From a virus, in the IMG/VR virus record IMGVR_UViG_3300042731_004523, positions 1-23,922 of that record: a stretch of 23,922 nt of DNA; one strand, written 5' to 3'. Position 1 is the stretch's first letter, and each line of letters opens with the position of its first letter. The notes beneath the pieces are model-generated. The model was not told where the DNA came from and searched no databases. It was given only the letters and a program-made list of their open reading frames with translations. The position numbers and the translations under genes were made by a program. Shown one piece after another: positions 11,734 through 23,922 of this stretch.

Positions 11734-11891
11734 TGAGCTTGGTCGTGAGACAAATCGCAACGTATCGGGAGGTGACAGAGTATTGGGACATTGACGAATT
11801 GCACGCGATGCGTGAAATCCTCGACATCCAGGACGATTTGGAGGCTGAATTCATCGCCCAAATGAAGGCAAAGCAAAGGCAGCGCGGATGA
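11733..11891 (+). CDS. Second tail assembly chaperone frame (own start or frameshift extension)
   Basis: A 52-aa open frame starting MSLVVRQIATYREVTEYWDI, with helical DELHAMREILDIQDDLEAEF and a basic tail AKQRQRG. Its ATG overlaps the preceding stop as TGATG, which allows coupled re-initiation. It is also the C-terminal part of the -1 extension described at the slippery heptamer. In either case the sequence fits the second tail chaperone element (gpT-like) between tube and tape measure. The acidic-aromatic helix YWDIDELHAMREILDI is typical of such tails. Which route is used cannot be read from the sequence. Confidence 0.6.
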   Translation: MSLVVRQIATYREVTEYWDIDELHAMREILDIQDDLEAEFIAQMKAKQRQRG

Positions 11892-13609
11892 TTGTCAGGG
11901 AATTATTGACCAGAATCGGCTACAAGGTCGACCGCAGGAGCGAGCAACGGGCGGCGCTGAGCTTTGATAAGCTCAAAAATGCGGCTGGCAAACTCGGACT
12001 TGCGCTCGGCGCCGGTGCCGTCGCCATCGGCTTCAAGCGCATGGTCGACGCTGCCTCTGATGTCGAGGAAACGATGAACGTCGTTACTACGGCGTTTGAG
12101 GATCAAGCCGATTCGGTCTTGCGCTGGGCGAAAGAATCTGGCGAGGCCTCCGGTCGCAGCCAATACGCGATGCGCGAATATGCTGCGACCCTTGGCGCCG
12201 TAGTTGGGCCCACCCTGGGCTCGGCCGAAGCAACGGCTGACCTGTCGACCAATATGGCGCAGCTCGCGGTCGACCTTGGATCATTTTTCAACGCGACGGA
12301 TGATGACGCGTTGCAGGCCCTGCGCGCCGGCTTGATTGGTAGCAGTGAGCCTATGCTGCGCTTTGGCGTTGATATGCGTACCGCCGCGCTCGATGCCTTC
12401 GCCTTGCGCGAAGGCATGGGTAAGACAATGAAACAAATGTCTTCGCAAGAGCAAATCTTGCTTCGATATCGTTTCATTCTCGACCAGACCAAAAAAGCGC
12501 AAGGCGACGCGGCCAAGACCGCAGATAGCTATGCGAATCTGATCAAACGCCTACAAGGAAATTTACAGGATCTGCAAGTCAGCATTGGCAAAGAATTCAT
12601 CCCAGCCGCGTCTGATGCGGTCAAAACGCTCAGCGACCTCGCAAAGACCATGAAAGAGCCATTGGCGCTTGCGGCTCGAGCCATGGTCAATGCATTCAAG
12701 TTTGCGCGCGCCGTTGTGATTGGCCTGGTCGAATGGTATAGCAAGCTCAGCGGTGCCATGAAGGTCGCCGTTGGGCTGGCGCTATTTTTCGCCGCGGCGT
12801 TCTTTACCCCTTGGCTGGTCGGGTTCCTGCTACTGGTTGCGGCAATCGGCGGCGTGATTGTCATCCTCGATGACCTTTGGGCGGCTGCGACCAAAGGTGA
12901 GGGCGTTTTTGCGGGCCTATTCGCCGAATTCAAATTGCTCGCCGAGCAAAACGATTCCTACGTGACCGCGACGCGCCTCAGTCTGCAGACGGCGCTCGAC
13001 TATTGGATTCACTACTTTACCGGCGTCGAGCATGGCAGCTGGCGCATCGGCGAGGCAATCCGTGGAGCGTTTCGCAGCGCCGGCACGTTCATCTTCGATA
13101 TTCTTGGCCTGTGGGGCTCCTATCTTGGCACCTTTGCCCGTGACGCAATCGTCCGATTCGGTGAAATCAGCCAAGGTATCGGCGAGGCAATCGACGCCAT
13201 CATCGAATGGATTGGCAAACTTGGCACCGCGATCGCCGATTACGTGACTGGAAAAATTGACGCCCTCATCGAATTGATTGGCAAGCTTGGCACCGCAATT
13301 TCGGAATTTTTCACCGAAAAAATCGACGCTGCCCTGGGAGTCGCAAAGGACTTTTTCGGTGTCATTGGCGACCTCGATAAATTTTTCGGATTGACCGGAC
13401 CAGAGGCAATCCAGGTCCCGGGTTCTCCCGCGGCCGCGCGCGCGCGAGGTGAGGTCAATTCGCAGCAAAGCATCGAAATCAATATCAATGCGCCAGGCGC
13501 CGATGGTTCGGCTATCGCAGGTGCGGTTGCCCCGGCCGTAGGTCGAGCTGCGGCCGATGGCAACCGCCGCACCGCTCAGCAATTGCTGTTAGGAGGCGCG
13601 ACGCCATGA
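11888..13609 (+). CDS. Tape measure protein
   Basis: A 573-aa protein filling the tail lumen and setting tail length. The N-terminus is helical and basic (YKVDRRSEQRAALSFDKLKNAAGKLGLALG). The next region, about 60-260, is the helical tail-length/TMP core (VDAASDVEETMNVVTTAFEDQADSVLRWAKESG). Hydrophobic segments follow at about 291-328 (VAVGLALFFAAAFF, VGFLLLVAAIGGVIVIL), as expected for membrane insertion on ejection. Two copies of a 22-residue repeat carrying IGKLGTA and KIDA lie at about 439-482, and the C-terminus has an Ala/Gly-rich tail. At the common rule of about 1.5 angstrom per residue the tail would be near 85 nm, a rough inference. The ATG overlaps the chaperone stop. Confidence 0.88.
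   Translation: MIVRELLTRIGYKVDRRSEQRAALSFDKLKNAAGKLGLALGAGAVAIGFKRMVDAASDVEETMNVVTTAFEDQADSVLRWAKESGEASGRSQYAMREYAATLGAVVGPTLGSAEATADLSTNMAQLAVDLGSFFNATDDDALQALRAGLIGSSEPMLRFGVDMRTAALDAFALREGMGKTMKQMSSQEQILLRYRFILDQTKKAQGDAAKTADSYANLIKRLQGNLQDLQVSIGKEFIPAASDAVKTLSDLAKTMKEPLALAARAMVNAFKFARAVVIGLVEWYSKLSGAMKVAVGLALFFAAAFFTPWLVGFLLLVAAIGGVIVILDDLWAAATKGEGVFAGLFAEFKLLAEQNDSYVTATRLSLQTALDYWIHYFTGVEHGSWRIGEAIRGAFRSAGTFIFDILGLWGSYLGTFARDAIVRFGEISQGIGEAIDAIIEWIGKLGTAIADYVTGKIDALIELIGKLGTAISEFFTEKIDAALGVAKDFFGVIGDLDKFFGLTGPEAIQVPGSPAAARARGEVNSQQSIEININAPGADGSAIAGAVAPAVGRAAADGNRRTAQQLLLGGATP
13200..13335 (+). repeat. 66-bp direct duplication in the tape measure gene
   Basis: ATTGGCAAACTTGGCACCGC near 13211 recurs as ATTGGCAAGCTTGGCACCGC 66 bases later. 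The downstream parts (GGAAAAATTGACGCC and GAAAAAATCGACGCT) repeat with the same period. At protein level this is a 22-residue unit with IGKLGTAI and KIDA. Partial divergence suggests an old in-frame duplication that lengthened the protein. Confidence 0.75.
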
Positions 13610-14213: not shown

Positions 14214-14540
14214 GTGGCAGTGCTCGAGATTCCAACCCGAATTGATTTGGCCGTTTATGATTTCACCATTGAGCTCGATGAGATCATCTATCGGCTGTCG
14301 CTGTACTTCAATCGACGTTCAAACCATTGGTACTTCAACGTCGCCGATATCGATGGCAACCAATTGCGCTCCGGCATCAAGCTGGTCTGCAATTGGGCCC
14401 TATTTCTGCAATGGGTCCAGCAAGGGCGCTTGGATGGCGATATCCTGGCGACCAATCCGGAAAGCGATGACGATCCGGATCGAGACACGCTAGGTACGCA
14501 AACCGTGCTAGCATACAACGAGGGCGTCGCCATTGGGTAA
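14214..14540 (+). CDS. Baseplate plug protein (Pam3 gp18-like)
   Basis: A 108-aa protein with a GTG start (14214) preceded by GGTGGG. The sequence LEIPTRIDLAVYDFTIELDEIIYRLSLYFNRRSNHWYFNVADIDGNQLRSGIKLV matches the small plug domain described for cyanophage Pam3 gp18 and related simple myoviruses: a compact beta structure with the 'W-x-x-x-ADxDG-x-x-L-x-x-GIxLV' stretch. It sits between the Dit-like gene and the hub gene, exactly where such a plug is found. The C-terminus is acidic (NPESDDDPDRDTLG). Its stop overlaps the start of the hub gene. Confidence 0.75.
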   Translation: MAVLEIPTRIDLAVYDFTIELDEIIYRLSLYFNRRSNHWYFNVADIDGNQLRSGIKLVCNWALFLQWVQQGRLDGDILATNPESDDDPDRDTLGTQTVLAYNEGVAIG

Positions 14541-15375
14541 GCTATTCAATCGGACGTTCGCCCTGAACCTGGGAGGCACGCTGGTTTCGAGTGAAACCAC
14601 CGATGGCGCTCGCAACGAAATCCTCCGGGTCACGTTTCAAATCGAAAAGAGTCTGACAGAATCGGCCAATACCGCCGAGATATCGGTCTACAACCTGGCC
14701 GAGCAAACCAGGGCCAAGGTAACCGAAAAAGCTCTATTGACCACGCTGGAGGTCGGATATTCTGGCCAATCCAGCATCATTTTCAGGGGCCAACTAGAGG
14801 CTGGAACCAACCAGCGCGATGGCGTTGACTGGGTAACGTCATTTCAGTCGACCGATAGCGGCAAACAGCTGCGCGAGTCGCGCATCAACGTCAGTTTCAA
14901 AACGATCAGCGCAACCGAGGCGATGCAAAAAATCGTTAATGCGCTCGGCGTCGGCATCGGCAATGCCAGGGACAAAATCGCTCAAGGCAATATCAGGGGC
15001 GCGCTGGATGATTTCAAAAATGGCCTGGTCTTGAGTGGACCGACCAAACGTGAGCTGACGCGGCTGACAAAAACGCTTGGGTATGGTTGGTCAATCCAGG
15101 ATGGCCAGCTGCAATTGCTCGCCGCCCGCGACGCTATCGAGCCCGGTGACGCGATCGTGCTCAATCCTGATACCGGCCTAATCGGCAGCCCGGAGTCCGG
15201 CGAGAATGGCATCATCGAGGCGCGCGCCTTGCTAATCCCGCAACTGACACCTGGCCGCGTGGTCAGGCTTGAATCTAGGCAGATTGAGGGGTTTTACCGG
15301 GTCGAAAAGGTAGCGTATCAAGGCGATACGCATGGGCAGGATTGGTATGCTGATTTGGAGTTGAAACCGCGATGA
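14533..15375 (+). CDS. Baseplate hub protein (gp27 / late-control D-like)
   Basis: A 280-aa protein with a TTG start at 14533, preceded by GAGGG. It begins GKLFNRTFALNLGGTLVSSE and shows the hub-type opening of short strands (RVTFQIEKSLTESANTAEISVYNLAEQTRAKV), then DWVTSFQSTDSGKQLRESRINVSFKTISATEAMQKIV, a pattern shared with gp27-like hub domains (the 'DG-x-x-L-x-x-S/T' turn). LGYGWSIQDGQLQLLAARDAIEPGDAIVLNPDTGLIGSPE lies in the middle. The C-terminus ends in a strand set with YLEL-like ADLELKPR. Its neighbours are the plug and the spike. The TTG start is supported by spacing, but no ATG alternative is close by. Confidence 0.75.
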   Translation: MGKLFNRTFALNLGGTLVSSETTDGARNEILRVTFQIEKSLTESANTAEISVYNLAEQTRAKVTEKALLTTLEVGYSGQSSIIFRGQLEAGTNQRDGVDWVTSFQSTDSGKQLRESRINVSFKTISATEAMQKIVNALGVGIGNARDKIAQGNIRGALDDFKNGLVLSGPTKRELTRLTKTLGYGWSIQDGQLQLLAARDAIEPGDAIVLNPDTGLIGSPESGENGIIEARALLIPQLTPGRVVRLESRQIEGFYRVEKVAYQGDTHGQDWYADLELKPR

Positions 15376-16124
15376 CCAGGACGCCCGACTTGGCAGACAT
15401 CATCCGCCAGGCCATCGAGGATAGGCTGGCGGATTTGCACGTCATGCTGCCAGGCCGTATCGCCTCGTATGATGCGACCACCCAAAAGGCCGATGTCGAG
15501 CCGCTTATCCGCCGCCTGCAGTCGACGGTCGACGGCGAGATTGCCGAGGATTTGCCGGTGATCCCTGGGGTCCCGGTGGTATTTCCTCGGACCCAGACGT
15601 TTCGTATCACCATGCCAGTCGCGGTTGGCGATCGTTGCATGCTGATTTTTTGCGAGCGGTCGACCGAGACCTACCAGCTCGGCGACGGGCGGCGCGGTGA
15701 TGATTCGACTTTGATCAAGCAATCCGACCCAGGCACTTTCGAAATGCATGGCCTGACCGACCCGGTCGCCTTGCTTGGCTGGTACAACGACGCCGAGGCG
15801 CTGACAACGCCTGACCCAGACGATATGGTCCTCGGTGAAATCGCTGGCCCAGTGGTTCACATCGGCAGCGACCAGATCAATTTGTACCAGAAAAGCGGCA
15901 GCGGTCACGATTTCGTTGCTCTGGCTGACAAGGTGGAAACCGAGCTAAAAAAAATTACAGCTATGACCGACGCGATCTGGCCGCTTATGACCGGGACGCC
16001 AATTATCAGCGAACCCGGCAATGGCTCGCCATCGGCATTCCAGGCAGCATTGGCTATTGCCCTGGGCGCTGTCTTGCAACCATCGATTAGCAAACCCGCC
16101 GCAACGAAGGTCAAAGCAACATGA
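15372..16124 (+). CDS. Baseplate central spike (Gp138 N-terminal-like)
   Basis: A 250-aa protein likely to form the membrane-piercing spike below the hub. The N-terminal segment VMLPGRIASYDATTQKADVEPLIRRL, then PVIPGVPVVFPRTQTFRITMPVAVGDRCMLIFCERS, matches the Gp138 OB-fold domain (PF18352). Residues about 165-200 (GPVVHIGSDQINLYQKSGSGHDFVALADKVETELKKI) are a beta-strand and helix end seen in these spikes. The C-terminus is Ala/Pro-rich and basic. The ATG overlaps the hub stop as ATGA. No separate lysozyme domain is apparent in it. Confidence 0.82.
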   Translation: MTRTPDLADIIRQAIEDRLADLHVMLPGRIASYDATTQKADVEPLIRRLQSTVDGEIAEDLPVIPGVPVVFPRTQTFRITMPVAVGDRCMLIFCERSTETYQLGDGRRGDDSTLIKQSDPGTFEMHGLTDPVALLGWYNDAEALTTPDPDDMVLGEIAGPVVHIGSDQINLYQKSGSGHDFVALADKVETELKKITAMTDAIWPLMTGTPIISEPGNGSPSAFQAALAIALGAVLQPSISKPAATKVKAT

Positions 16125-16489
16125 GTGATTTCAAACTCGACCCAGTGACCGGCGACCTCGACCTGAGCACAGGCGATTTGCAATTCGTCACCGGCGCCGA
16201 TGCGGTCGCGCAACACTTGCTCATCCGTTTGCGTTTCTACCTCGGCGAATGGTTTCTCGATACCAGAGTTGGCATACCTTACTACAGCCAAATCTTGGTC
16301 AAAAACCCGAATCTGGCAGCCATCCGAACGACCTATCGCCAGGCGATCCTGTCGACGCCAGGCGTGGAAACGCTCGAGCGCATGGATTTGGAATTCGATG
16401 CCGCAACGCGCGAGCTTGCGCTGGATTTTAGCGCCAGGCTTGCAGGCGAGACAGTCGCGCGCGACTTTAGCGAGGTATTCATCCTATGA
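16121..16489 (+). CDS. Baseplate wedge protein, gp25-like (DUF2634-type)
   Basis: A 122-aa protein with the gp25/DUF2634 layout: MSDFKLDPVTGDLDLSTGDLQFVTGADAVAQHLLIRLRFYLGEWFLDTRVGIPYYSQIL, then a helical stretch RTTYRQAILSTPGVETLERMDLEFDAATRELALDFSARL. The FYLGEWFLDTRVGIPY motif (about residues 40-56) is the most telling. The protein would hold the first sheath ring on the baseplate. It overlaps both neighbouring genes by ATGA. Confidence 0.88.
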   Translation: MSDFKLDPVTGDLDLSTGDLQFVTGADAVAQHLLIRLRFYLGEWFLDTRVGIPYYSQILVKNPNLAAIRTTYRQAILSTPGVETLERMDLEFDAATRELALDFSARLAGETVARDFSEVFIL

Positions 16490-17673
16490 GCTCATTCGGC
16501 GTACTATCGACGGGATTCAATCCGAAACTGATTGCCGACGTCCTGACGGATATCGAGGCGCGGCAAAAGGCGGATTTCGGCTCAACCATCAATGTCGGCG
16601 GCGAATCCGTGATCGGCCAGAACAACGCGACTTTCGCCGCCGCGGTCGCCGAGGCCTGGGAAGTCTTGCATGCTGTCTACCGGTCAATATACCCAGACAG
16701 CGCGACTGGCGAGGCGCTTGACAACGTCTGCGCCATCACAGGCGTTGTTCGCAATCCGGCGACCAAGTCAACAATCACCCTAGATTGCACCGGCACCAAT
16801 GGCACCTACCTAGCCACAGGCCGCGTGATTTCAGTTGACGCAACAGGCGAGCGCTTTGTCTCGGTCACGGATGGGACCATTGCGGGCGGTACCGTGGCCA
16901 TTGATTTCGAGTCGGAAGAGTATGGACCCGTGCAATTGCTCAATGGTCAGGCTTTGACCATCGAGACACCGGTCGCCGGCTGGTCAGGTGTCGACGCAAA
17001 CGAAGATGCCGTTCTAGGCGATGAGCTCGAAACCGATGCCGAGCTGCGCCTGCGCCGCCTGTCATTGCTGCGATTCCAAGGCGCTGCGACTATCGAGGCA
17101 ATCCGCGCTGATTTGCTTGATGTCGACGGCGTATTGCAAGTTTATGTGTACGAAAATGTCAGCATGATCACCGACGGACGCAATTTGCCGCCAAAGAGCA
17201 TTGAGGCGATCGTGCATTCGGAGGCCGGTACGCCAACGGCCGATATCGCCGAGGCGCTTTTCCTGACGAAACCGGCCGGGATTGAGACCTATGGCCATGC
17301 CCCAAACAATGTCAGTGAAACGGTGACCGATTCGCAAGGTGTCAATCATACGATCAACTACACTGAACCAGATGATACGCCAATCTACATTCGGGCCGAT
17401 ATCAAATATGATCCGGCCAGCTACCCGACCGACGGTGATACGCAAATCAAGGCAGCGCTTAAAGCGCTTGGCGATGAGATCTTGCTAGGTGAAACAGTCT
17501 ACTATGAGCGATTTCAAGCTGAGGTATTCGCCATCGACGGCGTGGTCGATTGCCCGGTATTCTACCTAGACACGGTATCGCCGCCAACCGGTACCAGCAA
17601 TTTGACCTTTACCACGCGCGAGCTGGCGACTTTTGACACCGGCGACGTTACGGTCAACTCGAGCCCGGTATAA
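16486..17673 (+). CDS. Baseplate J-like wedge protein
   Basis: A 395-aa protein of the gpJ family (PF04865-type). It begins FGVLSTGFNPKLIADVLTDIEARQKADFGSTINVG, continues with a helix (AAAVAEAWEVLHAVYRSIYPDSATGEALDNVCAITGVVR) that carries the 'A-x-GxxLDxxA-x-x-x-G' signature, then strand-rich domains with SVTDGTIAGG and YGPVQLLNGQALTIETPVAGW. A typical DELETDAELRLRRLSLLRFQGAATIEAIRADLLDVDGVLQVYVYEN follows. The fold would contact the DUF2612 wedge protein encoded next. The start codon overlaps the gp25-like stop. Confidence 0.88.
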   Translation: MSSFGVLSTGFNPKLIADVLTDIEARQKADFGSTINVGGESVIGQNNATFAAAVAEAWEVLHAVYRSIYPDSATGEALDNVCAITGVVRNPATKSTITLDCTGTNGTYLATGRVISVDATGERFVSVTDGTIAGGTVAIDFESEEYGPVQLLNGQALTIETPVAGWSGVDANEDAVLGDELETDAELRLRRLSLLRFQGAATIEAIRADLLDVDGVLQVYVYENVSMITDGRNLPPKSIEAIVHSEAGTPTADIAEALFLTKPAGIETYGHAPNNVSETVTDSQGVNHTINYTEPDDTPIYIRADIKYDPASYPTDGDTQIKAALKALGDEILLGETVYYERFQAEVFAIDGVVDCPVFYLDTVSPPTGTSNLTFTTRELATFDTGDVTVNSSPV

Positions 17674-17675
17674 CA

Positions 17676-18314
17676 ATGGCAACGCAACCAACACCACCGC
17701 CAGCCTTCACCGCCAACGCCAGCATGGTCGCCGATGCGATTCGGCGCCTGATTTCTCAATTTCGTTCCGGCACTTCTGGCGAGCCTATCAATGATTTTGA
17801 AAAGCTGGTTCGGTCATACGTCGACGAATTGCAAGCGCTTGATACCGCGGCGACTGATTTGCTGGTCCTGACCACATTGGACGGCGCTGAGGGCGTGCAG
17901 CTCGACGGCCTGGGTCAAATCATCGGGCTCGAGCGCAACGGCCTTGATGACGACCTCTATCAGTCTCTTTTGCGCGCGTATATCCGCGTCAATACTAGCG
18001 CTGGAACGATCGAGCAGATCAACGAAATCGTGCGCCTGGCGACGAATACCAGCGTGGCGGATCAATTTTTTCGATTGAACGAAGGCAGTCCGGCGGAGTT
18101 TGAAGTGCAATGCACCGGTCAATTGGGTACCGGCCTCGGCGCCATTGCGGCCGAGGCAATGTACCAGGGCAAACCTGCAGGCGTGCACGGAGTTTTTATC
18201 TACTGGGAAACCACTTCGCCATTCGTATTTGACGGCGGCGCTGTCTTTGATGGCGGTTACTTTTTCGCCGCTGCGATTCGAAATCGTGGCGCCCGCGAAT
18301 CGGAGATCTTGTAA
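17676..18314 (+). CDS. Baseplate wedge protein (DUF2612 family)
   Basis: A 212-aa protein of the DUF2612 family (PF11041), which in simple contractile tails takes the role of the second wedge protein. The helical N-terminal half has DAIRRLISQFRSGTSGEPINDFEKLVRSYVDELQALDTAATDLL, then EGVQLDGLGQIIGLERNGLDDDLYQSLLRAYIRVNTSAGTIEQI. The motif QLDGLGQIIGLER is distinctive. The C-terminal half is beta-rich (GVHGVFIYWETTSPFVFDGG). The next gene, a fibre, begins at the last base of this stop (TAATG), so the fibre probably attaches through this wedge. Confidence 0.85.
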   Translation: MATQPTPPPAFTANASMVADAIRRLISQFRSGTSGEPINDFEKLVRSYVDELQALDTAATDLLVLTTLDGAEGVQLDGLGQIIGLERNGLDDDLYQSLLRAYIRVNTSAGTIEQINEIVRLATNTSVADQFFRLNEGSPAEFEVQCTGQLGTGLGAIAAEAMYQGKPAGVHGVFIYWETTSPFVFDGGAVFDGGYFFAAAIRNRGARESEIL

Positions 18315-20275
18315 TGGTAGAGCCGAGACCGACCAAACTGCCGATCTGGAATACTGGCGGAAGCAACCGAACCGACCCGCTGTCCGCAAAGAAAATTCTC
18401 GGCTGGGTTCTGAGCGAAGCGCCACCATCGAGCTATTTCAACTGGCTGCAATACTACTCTGGCGCTTGGTTTACCTGGATATCAGAACGATTGCTAAAGG
18501 GCGTCAACGAAACCGATCTAACAGTCAATGCGTTGCAGCCTGATACGTCGGGCGCAGGCGGAACGCTGAAGCTTGAAGGCGGCGACGCCAACACATCGGG
18601 CGCGGGCGGCAATGTCGCCATCACAGCCGGTGCGACAGTTTCTGGCGATGGTGGTGATACGGTAATCAGTGGCGGCGCCGGTTCAACAACCGGTGGCAAT
18701 GTTAACCTTACCGGTGGCGGCTGCACCGGCACCGGTCCTGGCGGTCATTTGGTGCTATCCGGTGGCGCACCAACGGACGGATCTGGCGGTGATATCACAA
18801 TATCAGGCGGAACTGGTGTTGGTTACGAGGGCGGCGACGTTGATATTACGGCCGGGGGCAGCGATACAAATGCTGGCGATATCACGGTAACCGGTGGCGC
18901 CAATACCGCCTCAGGCCCGGGTGGCAATGTTACAGTCGAGGGCGGCGCCGCAGCCAATGGCACAGCTGGGTACCTGATACTCAATGGCGGCGTTGGCAAC
19001 GGCGTTCAGGGCGGAAATGTATCGATCAATGGCGGCGATAGCGATATTGCAGCCGGTGATATCAAAATAACGGCTGGCGATAATACCAGCTCAGGCACTG
19101 GTGGCGATGTGGAATTGACGGCCGGCGAAGGTATAGGTGCCGCTGGCGGCGCAGTTAGCATCAATGCAGGCGAAAGCGACACATCCGCAGGTAACATATC
19201 GATTGAGGCCGGCGTAAACAATACCAGTGGCAACGGCGGAGCTGCTACCATATCCGGTGGTGCCGCTACGGTTGGCACCGGTGGCGCCGCAGCGTTGATT
19301 GGCGGTACGGTAAATTCAACTGGCGCCGGTGGGAATGCCTCGACCAGAGGCGGCGATGGTTCTGGTACAGACCAAAATGGGGGATATGCATACCTTCAAA
19401 CTGGAAAAAGCACTGGCCAGGGTGGCAGCCTCGTTGCGTTGCAAGTGTCAGAGTCAGAATATAGCGGCTCTGGCAGTGGTTCATATGTCAATGCCTGGTC
19501 CACATACATCAACGCCAACGGGAATTCCGGCAACAAAGACGTTGCCATCAATCGGCACGCGCGTTTCACTGATTCTGCTGATACTACCCGCGGCAATATC
19601 CGCCTGGTTGCGAAGCCGGAACCTACCGGACCATCGGACGGTGATGTCTACAATGACAGCGTGACGCATCAAATTGGCTACTATAATGGTACGCGATACC
19701 ATAATCTGAATCCGACCGTTTACAATATATCGGACGATGCGGTCACCGGTCAGAATCCAGCCGCCTTAGCTGGTACGGCCTATGTCCTCAATGAGGTACC
19801 ATACGGAGGCGTAGTTAGTACTACCCCGTTGCGGCATATCATACCGGCGAATACCCTCAGAGTAGGCTCGATAATACGGGTCAGAGCGATAATGCAGTTA
19901 ATAGATGATGGCGGTGGTTCAACATACCCCACACCGAAAATTTACATCGGATCAATCGGCGCAGGGCCATCGCCGTATACATCGCCGACCGGAGTCCAAA
20001 TCCTCGCATTTTCAAGGGCATCGTTGATATGGAATTCATGCGGAGTTGAATGCGAGTTGCGGGTTAGATCTTTGGGCCCATCCGGCAACGTCGATTTGAG
20101 CTGGCGAGCAACCTATGATGAATCGTCATCGGTGAGGCCAGTCAACAACCACAGCATTGTCAACACCTCGACCCTGGCAACGAACGGTGCGCTTGATGTT
20201 TTTGCCGTCGCATTATTCGGATCTTCGGTCGGCTGGCAAGTCGATTTGACTCAATTCGTTGTCGAGATTCTCTAG
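18314..20275 (+). CDS. Tail fibre with about 20 glycine-rich repeats
   Basis: A 653-aa protein. Residues 1-60 (PTKLPIWNTGGSNRTDPLSAKKILGWVLSEAPPSSYFNWLQYY) look like the N-terminal attachment domain found on many phage fibres. Residues about 77-376 are about 20 units of 14-16 residues with the form G-x-GG-x-V-x-I-x-GG (GAGGNVAITAG, GGDITISGG, GGNVSINGG), alternating hydrophobic strands and Gly turns. This would suit a beta-solenoid or a glycine-rich sandwich shaft. After it come KPEPTGPSDGDVYNDSVTHQIGYYNGT, a common fibre linker, and a C-terminal beta domain of about 200 residues with FAVALFGSSVGWQVDLTQFVVEIL. The C-terminal part is the likely receptor contact. No chaperone-type domain is visible. 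Confidence 0.82.
   Translation: MVEPRPTKLPIWNTGGSNRTDPLSAKKILGWVLSEAPPSSYFNWLQYYSGAWFTWISERLLKGVNETDLTVNALQPDTSGAGGTLKLEGGDANTSGAGGNVAITAGATVSGDGGDTVISGGAGSTTGGNVNLTGGGCTGTGPGGHLVLSGGAPTDGSGGDITISGGTGVGYEGGDVDITAGGSDTNAGDITVTGGANTASGPGGNVTVEGGAAANGTAGYLILNGGVGNGVQGGNVSINGGDSDIAAGDIKITAGDNTSSGTGGDVELTAGEGIGAAGGAVSINAGESDTSAGNISIEAGVNNTSGNGGAATISGGAATVGTGGAAALIGGTVNSTGAGGNASTRGGDGSGTDQNGGYAYLQTGKSTGQGGSLVALQVSESEYSGSGSGSYVNAWSTYINANGNSGNKDVAINRHARFTDSADTTRGNIRLVAKPEPTGPSDGDVYNDSVTHQIGYYNGTRYHNLNPTVYNISDDAVTGQNPAALAGTAYVLNEVPYGGVVSTTPLRHIIPANTLRVGSIIRVRAIMQLIDDGGGSTYPTPKIYIGSIGAGPSPYTSPTGVQILAFSRASLIWNSCGVECELRVRSLGPSGNVDLSWRATYDESSSVRPVNNHSIVNTSTLATNGALDVFAVALFGSSVGWQVDLTQFVVEIL
18542..19442 (+). 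repeat. Glycine-rich repeat array in the fibre gene
   Basis: About 20 tandem, diverged units of roughly 42-48 bp encode G-x-GG-x-V-x-I-x-GG cassettes. GGTGGC- and GGCGGC-like words recur throughout. The units are never identical, so this is an old expansion rather than a fresh copy-number tract. Unit length varies by whole codons, keeping frame. Confidence 0.85.
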
Positions 20276-20283
20276 GTGCGGTC

Positions 20284-20601
20284 ATGGCAGACTTCGCAGA
20301 ATACTTGACCAGGACCGAGCATTTGCTGATCGTCTGTGCGGTTTGGGTCAGCATTGGCACCGTCAATCGAGTCTTTCCGGATTTGACCGAGAACCCGACC
20401 TGGGCGCGGTTGCTGCCGATCATACCTTTGATTTTTTGCTCGGCGGTGGTCTGGGTTCCCGGTGCCGTCGAAGGCAAACCATTAACTAGAATCATGCTCG
20501 GCCTGGTGTTGGGCGCGATGGCGGCGCATGGCCACAAAATTCTAAAGCAAAGCATATTCGGCAATGACAGGCGTATTCGCGACCATCCTCCGAGGCTCTA
20601 A
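20284..20601 (+). CDS. Small membrane protein, holin candidate
   Basis: A 105-aa protein with hydrophobic segments at about 14-28 (LLIVCAVWVSIGTVN), 43-60 (LLPIIPLIFCSAVVWVPG) and 68-82 (LTRIMLGLVLGAMAAHG), and a basic C-terminus (NDRRIRDHPPRL). Size, two to three membrane segments and a charged end are holin-like. It heads a group of small overlapping membrane protein genes after the fibre gene. No family is recognised, and a holin role is inferred from size and place. Confidence 0.5.
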   Translation: MADFAEYLTRTEHLLIVCAVWVSIGTVNRVFPDLTENPTWARLLPIIPLIFCSAVVWVPGAVEGKPLTRIMLGLVLGAMAAHGHKILKQSIFGNDRRIRDHPPRL

Positions 20602-22817: not shown

Positions 22818-23922
22818 ATGGCGCGATCATTTATTGCTGCATCTAGCCAGTATATCCAGGTCAATAGCGCGCCATCTATCAACCTTGGTTCCGTAGATTT
22901 CACTGTTTTAGCTTGGGTCAGATTCCCGACCGAGCCCCCAGATAACTCAATGATCGTCGGCAAGCGGGCTGGCGGGTTCGATGGCGATGAGGGTTGGGAG
23001 TTGAAAATTGACAAAGGCGGAGATCCAAGCGTTCGTTGGGACGTCGAAACCGATACCACTGGCCGCCAACGTGCCGAGGCGACCATCGGTGCATTGACCG
23101 ATGGCAACTGGCATTTGCTCGCCGGAGATCGCGACACCGATTTGCGGCTTCGTCTTTGGTTCGATGGTGCCGTGGTAAATACCAAAGCCGCAACCACCAC
23201 TGGCAGCGTCAACACCACGACACCGATGGTCGTTGGCGCGGCCTACGATACGCCAACGCCAACCAGTTATCTGACCGGCGAAATCGGACCGGTGTTTATT
23301 TGCGATCGGATTCTGAGCGATGGCGAGCATGCATGGCTTGCAAAGCGATTTTCTGGTCTTTTCTTGCGGCCGACACCGCGGTTTTTGCTCCAACTGATTT
23401 CGCGAGCCGCCGCCAATGAGCCAGACATTGGTGGCGGATTGCTCGGCGCCTTAGGCAATGGCCCGGAAATCGTCGACAATCCGCGGTTGATCTATCCTGC
23501 TGACCCGTACGTCGGCCAAGATCTTTGGTACGAACGTGCAACGGCGACCATCGCCGGTCAATCGTCGCTGACTGCGATCCAAACCAGGGGCCGCACCGCC
23601 AACGCCGTGATAGCCGGCCAATCCGCATTGACGGCATCAGTATCTGTCAGGGTACCGATTGCAGCGACCATCGCCGCGCAATCGACGATCAGCGCAGACA
23701 TCATGCCGGACGCGGCGGCTCGAGCCGCCATAACGGCGCAGTCAACAGTCAGCGCAGCGGCCAATATCAGGGCGTCGGTTGGCACGATTCCCATTGCTGG
23801 CCGGCTGACCATATCGCCTCTGCTTTCGGCCAAGGTACCGGTGGCGGCAACCGTCGCCGCGCAATCCAGCGTTACTTCAATCGCATCGCCCCGCGCTGGC
23901 GTCGCAGCGACTATTGCCGGCC
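22818..23922 (+). CDS. LamG/concanavalin-like protein with 20-residue repeats (3' truncated by window edge)
   Basis: The frame from ATG 22818 is open to the right edge (at least 368 codons). Residues 1-180 look like a LamG-type lectin-like jelly roll: FIAASSQYIQVNSAPSINLGSVDFTVLAWVRFP, GWELKIDKGG, GNWHLLAGDRD, LRLWFDGAVV, then LTGEIGPVFICDRILSDGE. A linker (RPTPRFLLQLISRAAANEP) leads to a set of about seven repeats of 20 residues, such as TIAGQSSLTA, VIAGQSALTA, TIAAQSTISA, AITAQSTVSA, TVAAQSSVTS. This order is known in phage and bacterial surface proteins. It would suit carbohydrate binding plus an extended stalk, which is inference. No ribosome-binding site better than AGGGG at 22805-22809 is seen. 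Confidence 0.78.
   Translation, partial: MARSFIAASSQYIQVNSAPSINLGSVDFTVLAWVRFPTEPPDNSMIVGKRAGGFDGDEGWELKIDKGGDPSVRWDVETDTTGRQRAEATIGALTDGNWHLLAGDRDTDLRLRLWFDGAVVNTKAATTTGSVNTTTPMVVGAAYDTPTPTSYLTGEIGPVFICDRILSDGEHAWLAKRFSGLFLRPTPRFLLQLISRAAANEPDIGGGLLGALGNGPEIVDNPRLIYPADPYVGQDLWYERATATIAGQSSLTAIQTRGRTANAVIAGQSALTASVSVRVPIAATIAAQSTISADIMPDAAARAAITAQSTVSAAANIRASVGTIPIAGRLTISPLLSAKVPVAATVAAQSSVTSIASPRAGVAATIAG
23547..23922 (+). repeat. 60-bp-period repeats at the right edge
   Basis: Seven units of 20 residues (one unit of 21) repeat the core I-A-x-Q-S-x-h-x-A (h hydrophobic) with variable 10-residue spacers. Units begin near 23547, 23607, 23667, 23727, 23790, 23850 and 23910, the last cut by the window. 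DNA copies are diverged but the word GCGCAATC or close relatives recur. The array may continue beyond the window. Confidence 0.8.

Follow-up and report, generated by a model that had tools for sequence, protein, structure and literature searches.

The window analysed here, a stretch of 23,922 nucleotides from a virus (IMG/VR record IMGVR_UViG_3300042731_004523), carries a probable tail-fibre gene whose product contains a long glycine-rich repeat array between a baseplate-anchor module and a C-terminal beta-rich domain. Judged from sequence, the repeat is real, regular, widespread and uncatalogued in phage fibres, and we estimate a probability of about one half that the array forms a length-variable trimeric beta-helical shaft, with interlacing of the T4 gp5 kind as the most likely arrangement. 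The relevant genes and protein segments are as follows.

11888-13609: tape-measure protein, upstream of the fibre gene
14533..15375, + strand: baseplate hub, E217 gp41-like (phrog_196, 2.9e-57; PF22759, 1.4e-7)
15372-16124: protein with PF18352, between the hub and wedge-1 genes
16121..16489, + strand: baseplate wedge subunit, wedge-1 position (phrog_120, 1.4e-30)
16486..17673, + strand: Baseplate J, wedge-2 position (PF04865, 3.8e-20; phrog_6, 7e-58)
17676..18314, + strand: DUF2612/baseplate protein, wedge-3 position (PF11041 and baseplate PHROGs)
18314..20275, + strand: tail-fibre gene P0001, 653 aa (open frame; L002 and L003 are full-length relatives in the same gene position)
18314..18538, + strand: N-terminal baseplate-anchor module, residues 1-75 (conserved in relatives; one predicted helix, 41-61)
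18557..19429, + strand: glycine-rich repeat array and proposed shaft, residues 82-372, 19 units of 14-17 residues (motif counts, periodicity)
19430..19714, + strand: transition region, residues 373-467, with the GDVYNDSVTHQIGYYNGTRYHNL motif (alignment A1; low pLDDT)
19715..20272, + strand: C-terminal beta-rich domain and probable receptor-binding knob, residues 468-653 (alignment; AF2 strands)

The product of the ORF at 18314-20275 is very probably the tail fibre of a contractile-tailed phage, because of its place in the gene order and because it has an anchor module common to tail-fibre PHROG proteins; both bear out the earlier note, which had called it a tail fibre. The gene lies directly downstream of the hub, wedge, baseplate J and DUF2612 genes, a place next to baseplate genes that is expected of a fibre gene. 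In phage 7-7-1, for which the baseplate has been solved, the genes for the hub, the spike and wedges 1, 2 and 3 are followed by the trimeric tail-fibre gene gp108, which, like the window gene, comes right after three wedge genes (gp111-109; PMC12796354). The layout of 7-7-1 gp015 is also similar, with an anchor, a beta-helical middle and a jelly-roll C-terminus (PMC12796354), although by sequence the window protein matches no PDB chain. The anchor occupies the N-terminal 60-75 residues (KPxWNTGGxNRTxPxxxxKxxGWxLxxxPPSSYFNW) and is common to the relatives L002, L003, L010, L011, L012 and L013 and to the annotated myovirus ctfzr933, whose fibre was detected with an HMM of the module at 5.2e-12, indicating a fibre-homologous N-terminus. 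N-termini of the relatives match tail fibre PHROGs 7389, 2126 and 2282, and L012 and L013 join the same anchor to different middles and tips. The fibre of Myoviridae sp. ctfzr933 (MW202455, L070:8830-9864) itself matches tail fibre PHROGs and is encoded by the second gene downstream of baseplate J; in contrast to the window protein, it lacks the glycine repeat shaft and ends in a different tip (Gp53-like_C). The window protein obtained no family score in Pfam, PHROGs or NCBIfam searches, tblastn of the full protein and of its N-terminus against annotated phages found nothing, and no relatives were found when GTDB genomes were searched by sequence. Rfam and tRNA scans were empty.

The array had been described as about 20 units of 14-16 residues, with GG turns and alternating V/I, over some 300 residues, and this description proved accurate, the count being 19 and the spacing reaching 17 at the end. 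The units follow the motif [AG]Gx(hyd)x(hyd)x[GA]G, of which the strict form is GG-[DN]-hyd-x-hyd-x-[GA]G-loop: a GG (sometimes AG) corner is followed by x-V/I-x-I/V-x, then by another GG or AG, and finally by a loop of about 5-9 residues that are small or polar. Start-to-start spacings are 16, 15, 14, 16, 15, 15, 14, 16, 15, 15, 14, 16, 15, 14, 16, 15, 16 and 17 residues, the last two units, where the spacing is 16-17, being degenerate. A stricter regular expression detected 17 motifs, whereas 5000 shuffles that kept the composition of the region gave 0.58 on average and never more than 5. Glycine autocorrelation reached z values of 6-8 at lags of 15, 45 and 60, and the spectral peaks fell at 7.5 residues for glycine (power 29.8; 99% shuffle limit, 8.8) and at 15.2 residues for hydrophobic residues (power 17.5; limit, 8.2). 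Since the glycine period of 7.5 lies within the hydrophobic period of 15.2, each unit of about 15 residues is, on this periodicity, composed of two half-units, each nearly the length of the 8-residue strand found in triple-stranded beta-helices of the T4 gp5 type. At the DNA level, no tandem repeat was reported by TRF in the array region at score 30 and direct repeats were only 60-77% identical, suggesting that the repeats are old; recent tandem duplication of the DNA was accordingly rejected. We also considered the 45- and 60-residue superperiods as a sign of three-fold geometry and rejected this, because other arrays did not generally have an excess at every third unit; block duplication in the lineage of the window would explain them better.

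The spread of the repeat was surveyed by searching IMG/VR contigs and MAG contigs for DNA patterns of two adjacent units. The same repeat was present in IMG/VR contigs and in a few MAG contigs, amounting to about 35 non-duplicate ORFs with at least 4 units and up to 40 units. The search pattern demanded V/I at two places, so the frequencies of V/I there are no evidence, but two features of about 230 units were not forced by the motif: position 10, in the second half-unit, was hydrophobic in 0-4% and favoured G/S/A, and units of 15-17 residues had G two residues before the next unit. Unit length varied from 14 to 19 residues across arrays. Glycine and hydrophobic periods in other long arrays were 8.0/15.9 (L043), 7.6/15.3 (L035), 7.5/15.1 (L003), 8.0/15.9 (L011) and 8.4/16.4 (L050), while L021, L016 and L045 had no clear glycine half-period. 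In L016, L017 and L021 the repeat takes a serine/threonine-rich form (SGxVxIxTG...), which retains the hydrophobic period of about 16, has no clear glycine half-period and reaches 40 units in one viral protein of 1008 aa. The MAG contigs with the repeat pattern (L036-L042) bear the labels TM6, Kaiserbacteria, Bacteroidales and Dehalococcoidia, and may represent either prophages or cellular proteins. A separate, independent fibre or spike domain is present in several carriers, namely Mtd_N (L019, L058), K1-lyase_C (L024) and Peptidase_S74 (L037), and the N-terminus of L046 is a borderline match to T4 gp9/10. None of the models in Pfam, PHROGs or NCBIfam describes the repeat, these libraries giving isolated marginal matches only, and a literature search found no paper describing it. 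The L019 array used as a tblastn query against annotated phages also gave nothing; like the tblastn searches with the window protein, this one may miss repeats of this kind because of the low-complexity filter.

Among relatives with the same anchor, the number of units, whose comparison the earlier note had proposed, varies: 19 in the window, 17 strict units in L003 (634 aa), 9 in L011 (536 aa) and 4 in L002 (431 aa). L002 aligns well with the window protein outside the array, including the knob, and the main difference is the missing units. The recurrence of the same segment in many phage fibres, at copy numbers that differ, gives it the look of a building block of adjustable length.

The two-level period is what would be expected of a rod in which hydrophobic and small-residue strands alternate with glycine corners between them. 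In the model that we favour, the N-terminal module would attach to the outer wedge of the baseplate, the array of 19 units would form a slender rod, and the C-terminal beta-rich knob would contact the host. Each unit would contribute two short strands of about 7.5 residues separated by GG corners, the first hydrophobic ([DN]-V-x-I-x) and the second small or polar (x-[GSA]-x...-G-x), and three chains would interlace into a triple-stranded beta-helix like that of the T4 gp5/VgrG spike, each strand bonding to strands of other chains. Gain or loss of units would change the length of the rod and leave the anchor and knob untouched, and unit number would thereby set the stand-off of the knob from the baseplate. 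That unit number sets fibre reach, as had been suggested for this array, is plausible. The repeat, its two periods, the fibre-type anchor, the gene order, the variation in copy number and the modular reuse are observed, whereas trimerisation, the interlaced fold, the rod function and the effect on length are inferred. Scaled from the gp5 rise (100 Å for 23 strands), and provided that the array is an interlaced trimer, the shaft would be about 17 nm long in the window, 4 nm in L002, 16 nm in L003 and 8 nm in L011.

Several observations link the array to T4 gp5/VgrG (PMC4576200). Both have glycine at intervals of 7.5-8 residues and hydrophobic strands, and in both N/D takes a constant position within the repeat, albeit in a different register; there is also a weak profile match to a gp5/VgrG spike. 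When the repeat profile was compared with all PDB sequences, the best match was the gp5/VgrG spike 9gtr (E 8e-4). The other six matches were all weaker than E 0.05 and included a further gp5, two chains of VgrG and one adenoviral fibre, so that 5 of 7 matches, most of them weak, were gp5/VgrG or adenoviral fibre trimers. A reversed-sequence control also reached 9gtr (E 0.39), indicating that the match is partly one of composition and pattern; T4 gp5 itself scored at shuffle level against the repeat profile. The profile signal is thus suggestive, a lead rather than proof. Against the gp5-like reading, the hydrophobic period is 15 rather than 8, which would leave one strand in two without a hydrophobic core residue. 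By the same measure, the T4 gp5 beta-helix has periods of 7.8-7.9 for glycine and 7.7-8.1 for hydrophobic residues, compared with 7.5 and 15.2 in the array, which further differs from T4 gp5 in its GG corners and in having no significant match to it. The setting also differs, a side fibre in the window and a central spike in gp5. The array agrees with the T4 gp5-type octapeptide helix (VxGxxxxx) in glycine spacing and departs from it in hydrophobic spacing, and we did not file it as such, although a gp5-like mode of working remains our leading idea.

Structure prediction bears on this reading and on a different, rather unlikely one, in which the chains fold separately, each into a narrow parallel beta-solenoid whose coils consist of one 15-residue unit (a hydrophobic face and a small/polar face joined by GG corners) and three such rods lie side by side in the trimer. 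The unit length suits a two-strand coil, and the variation from 14 to 19 residues is compatible with such a fold, as solenoids tolerate loop-length variation. An AF2 model of the whole protein from three sequences (pLDDT 43) contained strands spaced like the units, every 14-16 residues, with solenoid-like pairing in the array and extra short strands half-way, at a pLDDT of only 42-49. AF2 usually finds solenoids easily when it is given an alignment of repeats of the kind assembled here (A3; 44 rows of non-overlapping sub-arrays). With that alignment, a single chain of eight units was predicted at an even pLDDT of about 70 (pTM 0.44) without any DSSP element or compact fold, and the parallel solenoid put forward in the earlier note, modelled as a monomer, disappeared with the deeper input. 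The eight-unit model had no PDB fold match, and in BFVD it matched three phage proteins with low TM scores and rmsd values of 19-20 Å for the three best, suggesting that the modelled chain is extended rather than compact. The absence of DSSP elements fits a chain that pairs strands only with other chains, as in gp5, where the chains are unable to fold outside the trimer (PMC4576200), but it is ambiguous in that tool failure or disorder would look the same. A glycine-rich tether, flexible and mostly disordered, that links the anchor to the knob would agree with the 31% glycine of the array and with the failure of AF2 to build a compact domain; we regard it as distinctly improbable given the repeat-model pLDDT of about 70 and a strict V/I alternation and two-level periodicity that are conserved across many viruses.

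A triple beta-spiral of the adenovirus-fibre type, with one 15-residue repeat per step, would share with the array the repeat length of about 15 residues and the setting in a fibre shaft that is trimeric in adenovirus, and the adenoviral fibre 8on5 was among the weak profile matches. That match (E 4.2) is at noise level. In the triple beta-spiral both strands of a repeat must carry hydrophobic residues, whereas the array has them in only one half-unit, the second being almost free of them at position 10, and we consider this fold improbable. The glycine content also recalls the S16 gp38 and Pam3 gp24 adhesin tips, which are likewise glycine-rich beta-like segments of phage fibres, and the Pam3 fibre shares with the window protein an alpha-helical baseplate anchor (PMC9608196). 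In those tips, unlike in the array, glycine runs (GGGGxGG) form a lattice at the end of the fibre (PMC9608196). The longest glycine run in the array is 3 residues, occurring once (8 and 5 in S16 gp38), the glycine period is 7.5 rather than the weak 4.5 of gp38, there is no profile match to S16 gp38, and the array is not at the fibre tip. The glycine-rich packed sandwich that had been offered as the second possibility, taken here as a polyglycine-II sandwich, is accordingly disfavoured, and we hold it to be extremely doubtful.

Other known repeats were compared and rejected. The longest collagen-like G-X-Y run was 2 triplets, and the period-3 power was 4.7 compared with 31.3 at 7.5; profile scores against the T4 long and short fibre proteins (gp12, 34, 36 and 37) were no better than those of shuffles, in agreement with the initial impression that the array is far from collagen-like and T4 fibre repeats. 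The RTX beta-roll motif (GGxGxDxLx) had 0 matches, and there was no period-9 signal. On these comparisons, the array works like other beta-structured fibre shafts while failing the defining tests of the collagen-like, T4 fibre, polyglycine-II, RTX and triple beta-spiral classes. A bolder form of the interlaced trimer, which we advance tentatively, is that the array represents an uncatalogued beta-helix built of alternating hydrophobic and glycine/polar strands, and that it serves as an interchangeable, length-adjustable cassette in many otherwise unrelated fibres and spikes. That phage fibres contain glycine-rich beta repeats is in itself no surprise; an alternating-strand trimer, if true, would be more notable.

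Phage fibres are poorly annotated outside well-studied phages, and a repeat that occurs in dozens of fibre-like proteins and has no family-library model could make many hypothetical proteins recognisable as fibre shafts. The variable unit number at one gene position provides a natural length series for relating fibre reach to repeat count, and the array is a possible modular rod for protein design.

The C-terminal domain, the probable receptor-binding knob, resembles that of L002, is diverged in L003 (alignment) and is different in L011 (by inspection). AF2 predicted beta-strands in it with pLDDT mostly 50-70; Foldseek with the full-length AF2 model returned only non-significant matches, none below E 0.006 and mainly to lectin, jelly-roll, TNF-like and other beta proteins.

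Other features of the cluster were noted as well. Immediately after the fibre gene, a small, apparently hydrophobic ORF (20284-20601) has a marginal holin match (phrog_1129, E 0.087) and is possibly the start of a lysis cassette. The 134-aa protein encoded at 21640-22044 matches Pfam Gp80 (E 2.8e-42; podophage GP4 fiber I protein), although its relatives are classed in PHROGs as head protein; it may serve as a further adhesin or as a decoration component. The tape-measure gene contains, close to its end (13189-13329), a 66-bp tandem repeat (78% match over 2.1 copies), which encodes a 22-residue repeat that may be related to tail length. At 22818-23922, running off the end of the window, and at L002:8840-10474 and L003:9396-11531, a laminin-G-like lectin domain is followed by an Ala/Ser-rich array with a spacing of about 20 residues (e.g. 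AATIAGQSATTSxxTRxQPG), which is longer in L003 than in L002; the cluster has in it a second protein whose repeat count varies, and one that possibly binds surfaces.
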